From Microbulbifer sp. Q7 (lineage in GTDB: Bacteria > Pseudomonadota > Gammaproteobacteria > Pseudomonadales > Cellvibrionaceae): a stretch of 64,000 bases of DNA. The first letter of the stretch is position 1, and each line of letters starts with the position of its first letter. This document shows, in pieces, positions 15,776 through 15,926 of this stretch. The stretch lies in NCBI RefSeq assembly GCF_001639145.1, contig NZ_LROY01000002.1:248001-312000 (forward strand), given 5' to 3'. The position numbers and the translations under genes are program-made. Under the pieces are notes generated by a model that worked only from the letters and a program-made list of their open reading frames with translations, was not told the DNA's origin and searched no databases.

Positions 15776-15926
15776 TGACTCGTCCTTGCTAAATTCGGGC
15801 TTGAAGCCCATTCGACTGTTCGAGTTTGTAAATCGGGTCGGCCACCCGCTCAGGCTTGTTAACGATCTTTAGAGATCTGGCGTGCATCGAGCTAGGTAGC
15901 CGGTAACATGGTGAGAGATGTTACGG
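15776..15926 (-). ncRNA. Predicted bridge RNA of the IS110-family element
   Basis: Read on the minus strand this segment folds into three parts. (1) A 5' stem-loop, GTAACAT/ATGTTAC (15918-15924 with 15903-15909). (2) A target-binding loop closed by an 8-bp stem (15895-15902 with 15839-15846, one G-U), capped by GATCT-CTAA-AGATC. Its left strand contains ACGCC (15879-15883), as in the right attC flank, and its right strand contains TAACAAG (within 15854-15861), as in the left attC flank. (3) A donor-binding loop closed by ACTCG/CGAGT (15821-15825 with 15778-15782), capped by GGGCT-TCA-AGCCC (15797-15809), with ACAGTCG (15813-15819) identical to the element's own end at 14794-14800. Ends are approximate. 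Confidence 0.7.

Follow-up and report, generated by a model that had tools for sequence, protein, structure and literature searches.

How an insertion sequence comes to lie in an attC site of an integron cassette array, and which part of its own DNA could direct it there, is the question raised by a stretch of non-coding DNA in Microbulbifer sp. Q7. The window, meaning the whole stretch of DNA that was analysed, comprises 64,000 nucleotides (contig NZ_LROY01000002.1, positions 248,001 to 312,000), and in it the initial annotation had described, upstream of a recombinase gene, a bridge RNA of the IS621 design with guides matching the attC target and the end of the element. Judged by its sequence, the element is an IS110-type, IS621-like insertion sequence sitting in an integron attC. 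Its ends were set from the five insertions found in the same genome together with the uninterrupted homologous sites of two of the other copies. The recombinase contains the domains PF01548 (E 1.6e-23) and PF02371 (E 2.4e-17), and among solved structures its nearest relatives are IS621 (8wt6, E 1.6e-25) and ISCro4 (E 2.3e-25). The catalytic residues and the Tnp serine of IS621 used in this alignment are those named in the literature (PMC11208158, PMC11208160). The non-coding DNA around the gene amounts to 193 nt on its upstream side and 29 nt on its downstream side. The upstream region very probably yields a bridge RNA, whose target-binding loop would read the attC and whose donor-binding loop would read the element's own ends. 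The features on which this reading is built are collected in Table 1.

Table 1. Positions in the window of the element, its target and the predicted parts of its bridge RNA (LTG, RTG: left and right target guide; LDG, RDG: left and right donor guide)
Feature	Position	Strand	Remarks
IS110-type insertion sequence	14794..15966	-	1173 bp including one 2-bp core copy (CT on minus strand)
DEDD recombinase (transposase), 316 aa	14823..15773	-	D-E-D-D and Tnp serine align with IS621
Right target TGTTATG	14785..14791	-	TAACA on plus = attC R'' box
Core dinucleotide, right end	14792..14793	.	CT on minus
Left donor = element right end, ACAGTCG	14794..14800	-	
Possible -35 TTGCAA	14803..14808	-	promoter only in circle junction; partner -10 TCTAAT at 15952-15957, spacer 18
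Core (15965-15966) and right donor (element left end), CTTGTAT	15960..15966	-	
Left target TGCAACGCC (last C = core)	15966..15974	-	attC L'' side
Predicted bridge RNA, approximate ends	15778..15933	-	covariation in 30 and 34 aligned sequences; fold
5' stem-loop GTAACAT...ATGTTAC	15903..15924	-	fold; 77.1% of cells paired (helix 2)
Target-binding loop, stem 5' side	15889..15901	-	helix 3: 96.7% of cells paired; 11 of its 13 pairs change on both sides
LTG TGCACGCC	15879..15886	-	position set by guide/flank covariation in relatives; match of this copy not above chance
Apical hairpin between both target guides	15864..15877	-	helix 4: 83.3% of cells paired
RTG TAACAAG	15855..15861	-	complementary to CTTGTTA (core and attC R'' box); 27 of 30 A1 sequences
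Target-binding loop, stem 3' side	15840..15851	-	covariation in 30 sequences
Donor-binding loop, stem 5' side AACTCG	15821..15826	-	U-A/C-G exchange in 6 of 34 sequences
LDG ACAGTCG	15813..15819	-	equal to right end (counts in text)
Donor-loop hairpin GGGCTTCAAGCCC	15797..15809	-	99.3% paired (helix 2), GC/AU exchange in 6 of 34 sequences
RDG GCAAG	15785..15789	-	faces CTTG(T) (core, left end); fifth position is G.T
Donor-binding loop, stem 3' side CGAGT	15778..15782	-	alignment of 34

The genome of Q7 encodes an integron integrase (420.8 bits, with a cut-off of 265 that 0 of 14 control genomes reach), and attC sites span about 10.6-18.9 kb of the window, many of them with the pattern TAACAA-N6-GCA. 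Just past the cassettes lies an ORF (19679-20725, minus strand) whose product we take to resemble an IS3-type transposase. Four complete copies of the element, 99-100% identical, and a broken fifth were found in this genome. These five insertions occupy five different attCs, which fits the earlier suggestion that the element could jump among cassettes. On one side they all have TAACA-AG and on the other ACA followed by a variable attC body, the end of which is GCGTTA in four of the five and a changed GCGTAT in copy L004. The broken copy (L005 and L006, G000:C2 at about 478.8-479.9 kb) contains a loxP-like stretch, ATAACTTCGTATA-8-TATACGAAGTTAT, plus a second half; this is presumably a linker from a mate-pair library that remained in the assembly, and the internal deletion of this copy may be an assembly artefact. 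It is adjoined by a member of the attC subfamily of 43% identity (G000:C2:480285-481193), two subfamilies standing here side by side.

TGTTA follows the core in 94 of 107 resolved insertions, ten unresolved ones having been left out of this tally. Among the 13 without it are L015, L113 and L115 as well as sites that are shifted or changed and ends that are broken. At the right end of the element the core is CT in 103 of 106 rows. Of 90 unique attC insertions, 79 have C as the first core base on the target side and 11 have a different base there. A crude test for the R' partner gave only a weak signal (score of at least 9 in 12 of 107 rows versus 1 of 107 in the control).

Empty sites were compared for two copies. 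A cassette of another genome (L152), 94% identical to that of copy L002, is continuous through CATAACAATGCAATGCAGCC, and three sites related to that of copy L003 (L142, L143 and L145, about 80%) are continuous through CATAACAA(G/A)CGCAAGCAG. In both comparisons zero bases beyond the core are duplicated. The target core of L002 reads AT on the element strand; AT is kept at the left junction and the donor CT is found at the right, which is the outcome expected if strands exchange 3' of the core, as is described for IS621 in PMC11208158. These two copies were used because the search of the 48 genomes of the genus gave, for the cassette on the left side of the window copy, no match other than itself and thus no empty site to compare.

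The 5' stem-loop and target-binding loop, which had been drawn by eye in the initial annotation, are present in the computed fold of the minus strand (15770-15950), with a z-score of -4.49 and 0 of 200 shuffles equally stable. The covariance analysis over related elements that it had called for also bears out the structure. Alignment A1 contains 30 of 47 distinct upstream regions, two of which come from the genome of Q7, and alignment A2 contains 34 of 41. On A1, RNAalifold predicted 19 pairs, 14 of them with two-sided changes. In the named structure, whose 29 pairs include those of the 5' stem-loop although its alignment is unreliable (misaligned) between the groups of 42-50% identity and the rest, 89.4% of cells are paired versus 71.9% after shuffling, and covariation is 0.528 versus 0.187, neither value being reached in 500 shuffles; controls with slid partners gave a covariation of at most 0.152. 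Nineteen pairs of this structure have a two-sided change (reached by 5 of 500 shuffles) and there are 49 further pair types (30 of 500). Among the parts that covary, the structural reading leans on the stem of the target-binding loop. For the donor-binding loop (A2; stem ACTCG/CGAGT, hairpin GGGC/GCCC), 92.5% of cells are paired versus 87.2% and covariation is 0.243 versus 0.142, both at 0 of 500 shuffles, with four two-sided-change pairs and ten further pair types, which are reached by 129 and 49 of 500 shuffles, respectively. A search of the whole window with Rfam at gathering thresholds returned the small SRP RNA alone, and no family of that library covers the upstream region. At 15797-15809 and 15925-15933 (minus strand) the middle arm GGGCTTC has two possible partners, the 5' arm GAAGCCC and the 3' arm AAGCCC, and both pairings are largely preserved in relatives (helix 1 of the A1 structure and helix 2 of the donor loop). 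The bridge RNA may switch between two folds.

The RTG faces the CTTGTTA that flanks the right end (14787-14793, minus strand), and the 7-nt match that had been claimed for it is reached by only 19 of 1000 shuffled flanks. In the first set of relatives 75 of 78 rows have TAACAAG as the RTG, the exceptions being L004 in the genome of Q7, L013, in which the right flank is changed, and the non-attC L015. In the second set it stands upstream of 31 of 35 entries, with the sister-clade members L113, L114 and L115 and the truncated L125 as exceptions. In L004 (G000:C1, about 234-235 kb), the copy with the changed attC body, CAACAAG replaces TAACAAG.

The LDG had been read correctly as identical to 14794-14800 on the minus strand, and in relatives it changes together with the right end of the element. 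Guide and right end are equal in 98 of 106 rows, 11 entries having been dropped from this tally and two of its rows (L005 at 47%, and L016) being artefacts of neighbouring or missing sequence. This equality is maintained through seven different words (ACAGTCG, ATAGTCA, ACAGTTG, ACAGTCA, ATAGTCT, ACGGTTG and ACGGTTA), and the 15 distinct pairs agree on average in 6.2 of 7 bases versus 5.1 after permutation (0 of 20000). The weak RDG of the initial annotation (4 nt plus one wobble) was misplaced. It lay 5' of the LDG and was dropped, since the donor loop of IS621 has the order LDG, hairpin, RDG (PMC11208160, PMC11208158), which puts the RDG 3' of the LDG; by this order the candidate is GCAAG. 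It is found in 30 of 30 A1 sequences and in 33 of 34 A2 sequences (L113 differs). The RDG and the left end are near-invariant, hence they offer no covariation signal.

In the mechanism that we propose the upstream non-coding region would be transcribed as the bridge RNA. The RTG would read the R'' box and the CT core of the attC, and the LTG would read the L'' side, namely TGC and five or six variable bases. Where the ends of the excised circle are joined, the LDG would read the right end ACAGTCG and the RDG the core plus left end, CTTGT. The recombinase would exchange strands 3' of the core and the circle would enter the attC with no duplication beyond the core. The sequences themselves show the anatomy, the covariation within the RNA and of its guides with target and donor DNA in relatives, the place of insertion and the empty sites. 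Production of the RNA and its binding by the recombinase, a circular intermediate with a junction promoter, and chemistry of this kind are suggested by analogy with IS621 and ISEc21. The putative junction promoter TTGCAA-18-TCTAAT has 9 of 12 consensus bases, a score reached by 14 of 300 shuffled junctions.

The LTG needs a separate treatment. The sequences that had been put forward for it in the window are present, as is the bulged alignment TGC-ACGCC / TGCAACGCC, but the longest match to the left flank, ACGCC (5 nt), is at the level of chance, a match as long being seen with 308 of 1000 shuffled flanks. The other four insertions in the genome of Q7 have the same LTG and flanks without ACGCC at that place. 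Among relatives, the guide follows its flank. In 91 unique pairs (48 guides, 106 rows) the identity of LTG and left flank is 0.647 versus 0.503 for permuted pairs (z 10.5, 0 of 20000), and with the last five or six bases of the guide only it is 0.624 versus 0.478 (0 of 20000). Related insertions are counted separately in these statistics and in those on site choice, except in the test with one value per guide, which also gave 0 of 20000 permutations. With guide base 1 placed at -8 or -9, the match to other flanks is exceeded by 0.073 and 0.124, respectively, and at six other registers by at most 0.022. Taken by group, the clade at 44% and below (n=28) and the other genera with the 50% clade (n=38) both gave 0 of 20000, and members from the genus of Q7 with at least 57% identity (n=25) gave 356 of 20000. 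The first comparison of LTG and flank left out two entries without a resolved left end; from the LTG set 19 entries were dropped (duplicates, no upstream region, masked N, or unresolved), four of which were later recovered. The guide types among natural members include TGCCTGGCC and TGCCCGGCC. Thus the matching guide changes in relatives, which the initial annotation had named as a check, are seen in the LTG with the left flank as well as in the LDG with the right end. From these comparisons the LTG is real as a family feature, while its match in the subclade of the window is unproven; in this very copy the LTG may be functional.

The choice among the attCs of a host was evaluated against a background of 288 putative attCs with TAACA, 279 of them with TAACAA, obtained with a crude attC finder from 12 hosts (20 array stretches and the window). 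Identity to the LTG is higher at occupied attCs than at TAACAA attCs drawn at random from their host (0.661 versus 0.536, 0 of 5000; n=40, 11 hosts), with a mean percentile of 0.71 (Wilcoxon p 3e-5), so that over these 40 insertions the LTG is a predictor of the attC in which a host carries the element. Moreover, the first core base is C in 34 of the 40 occupied sites versus 111 of the 279 background attCs (p 8e-8). The fit of an LTG to the attC repertoire of its own host was higher than to those of other hosts in 10 of 21 host/guide rows, two of which rest on a single attC, and thus showed no consistent preference.

These results can be explained in two ways. We incline slightly to the view that one widespread IS110 clade has specialised on integrons by means of a two-part address, in which the RTG is near-frozen on the R'' box (TAACAAG) and the LTG is retuned by point mutation to attC subtypes on the L'' side and helps to decide which cassettes are hit; this would be a natural and ongoing reprogramming, independent of the attC-targeting IS1111 elements. 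Such changes of the LTG may stem from selection or from drift and spread. The other explanation, which we consider rather unlikely while giving it some weight, accepts the bridge RNA but has the RTG, the core and perhaps the attC shape alone pick the target, the LTG of the subclade being loose and TGC merely a common attC triplet. It is in line with the guide types nearest to that of the window (n=17), in which identity to their own flanks is 0.480 versus 0.470 to those of others, no excess (6091 of 20000), with the presence of TGC at -9 in 41 of 48 putative attCs of the genome of Q7, and with the poor match of insertion L005 to the LTG (0.38). The clade-wide covariation of the LTG and the site choice within hosts, both at the same guide position in relatives, speak against a loose LTG. 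So does the fact that four of the five insertions in the genome of Q7 lie above the host mean (0.62 versus 0.50). The test of these five window-type insertions against the attCs of their own host gave 365 of 5000, which weakens the case for the LTG of the window.

Within the genus, 20 of 48 genomes had relatives at E 1e-60 or better, as had 41 of 144 in the family and 9 of 369 in the class sample, each count including the genome of Q7. The 22 named loci include isolates of Sessilibacter and Leucothrix and metagenome bins of Thiodiazotropha and Ectothiorhodospiraceae; L020-L028 among them gave no rows, alignments under about 180 residues being left out. L016, L017, L019 and duplicates of the copies of Q7 were left out by hand from the set of upstream regions. 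In a FastTree phylogeny of 81 recombinases, rooted on two plasmid elements, 70 attC-type tips form one clade (0.994); these 70 are the tips outside a hand-made list of 11, and their attC label rests on the TGTTA tally and the guides rather than on a full attC model. A group of eight (support 0.924) stands beside this clade. The sites of five of these eight elements were read and none has TGTTA. Relatives with matching guides, whose absence would have told against the initial annotation, exist at other kinds of sites too, in this sister group: at their non-attC sites, L015 matches with an RTG of 8 nt (2 of 1000 shuffles) and an LTG of 8 nt (13 of 1000), and L136 with an RTG of 7 nt (11 of 1000) and an LTG of 8 nt (7 of 1000). 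The other three are weak. In L113 the 7-nt match of the RTG falls in a G run (54 of 1000) and the LTG is at chance (267 of 1000), in L114 the RTG match is of the same length and also in a G run (107 of 1000), and in L115 the RTG matches 5 nt (239 of 1000) and the LTG reaches 154 of 1000. The weak matching of these three of five, together with the changed RTG of L004, makes the bridge RNA reading slightly less certain. A plasmid element of Vibrio alginolyticus lies among small cassette-like genes, and its LTG TTGAACGAT faces the flank TTGAACAGT, the longest exact match being TTGAAC (89 of 1000 shuffles).

The similarity to IS621, as described in PMC11208160 and PMC11208158, comprises the DEDD recombinase with its Tnp serine, the predicted upstream bridge RNA, the CT core, a target loop ordered LTG-hairpin-RTG and a donor loop ordered LDG-hairpin-RDG. 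By deduction from the pairs listed there, the right donor CTTGTAT and the candidate RDG GCAAG are also the same. In contrast to IS621 the present element targets integron attC sites, its RTG match is 7 nt including the core and not the four paired bases (G77-G80) given for IS621, and the two recombinases are only distantly related (E 1.6e-25). Siddiquee et al. (PMC11187229) describe seekRNAs of the IS1111-type ISKpn4 and ISPst6, with attC targets, and of the IS110-type ISEc21, with another target. With ISEc21, according to the same source, the element shares the upstream non-coding region and a bottom-strand match placed 5' of the top-strand match; ISEc21, however, targets a conserved stretch of IS3-family transposase genes and not attC. 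A circle intermediate and a junction promoter are reported there for ISEc21, whereas here promoter-like joined ends are predicted from sequence alone. The window element and the IS1111-attC elements (ISKpn4, ISPst6 and ISPa25, with seekRNA) have in common an insertion at one attC end, which is RNA-guided in the latter (PMC11187229) and would be so in the former. That the window element is itself a member of this known group, as the same kind of target and the related type of transposase might suggest, is very improbable. The guide RNA of the IS1111-attC elements lies downstream of the gene, they have subterminal inverted repeats, their target guides are in reversed order, and they form a separate family in the phylogeny of PMC11187229. 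The long non-coding region of the present element is upstream of its gene, although exceptions to this rule of sides exist according to that paper. Moreover, its bottom-strand guide stands 5' of the top-strand guide, which is the IS110 order of PMC11187229. No subterminal inverted repeat was found in the 40 terminal nt at either end, the best match there being equalled by 980 of 1000 shuffles. The nearest solved relatives, IS621 and ISCro4, also argue against membership, the tree of 81 holding no named IS1111 recombinase. The papers of Tetu and Holmes (2008) and Post and Hall (2009) are reportedly those cited on the IS1111-attC group.

The least probable alternative, that the upstream structure is a leader regulating the transposase and the guide matches are coincidental, draws on a predicted 3' stem ending within five bases of the start codon and on the AAGGA of this region, which we take to be a possible Shine-Dalgarno sequence, and it is hardly tenable in view of guides that change together with targets and donor ends. 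An additional regulatory role for the structure, beside that of a bridge RNA, is possible.

Regarding novelty, attC targeting by the IS1111 branch with its seekRNA and guide RNAs as such were known before. Targeting of attC by the upstream-guide branch of IS110 was not found among the literature matches listed, a set that stands outside ISfinder and most subscription papers. A study of Shewanella integrons reports, in the part of its text that was covered, IS110-like elements and no IS interrupting attC sites, and the covered parts of other literature on IS110-superfamily elements in attC name the IS1111 group and, in one case, also an IS4-like element. If the bridge RNA reading is true, integron attC sites have become a target of RNA-guided recombinases in two of their branches. 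In addition, the natural series of guides and targets (48 guides, 288 putative attCs) can be useful for measuring how bridge RNAs choose their target and how this choice changes. Where copies occupy many attCs of the same array, they may also split these sites and affect cassette shuffling.

Some arrangements among the relatives deserve mention. At L123 (G067:C2:2978000-2984900) three copies of one element are found within about 5 kb; the two readable left flanks are attC-like and the third is masked. In L051 and L059, from two species, a near-same cassette flank (TTGTTAGGGCGGTTCA) is accompanied by different elements and different attC bodies, and this sharing could reflect an exchange of attCs through the elements. 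In the upstream region of L094 the left end (TTGTATGGATAATTTCCC) is present as a tandem duplicate.
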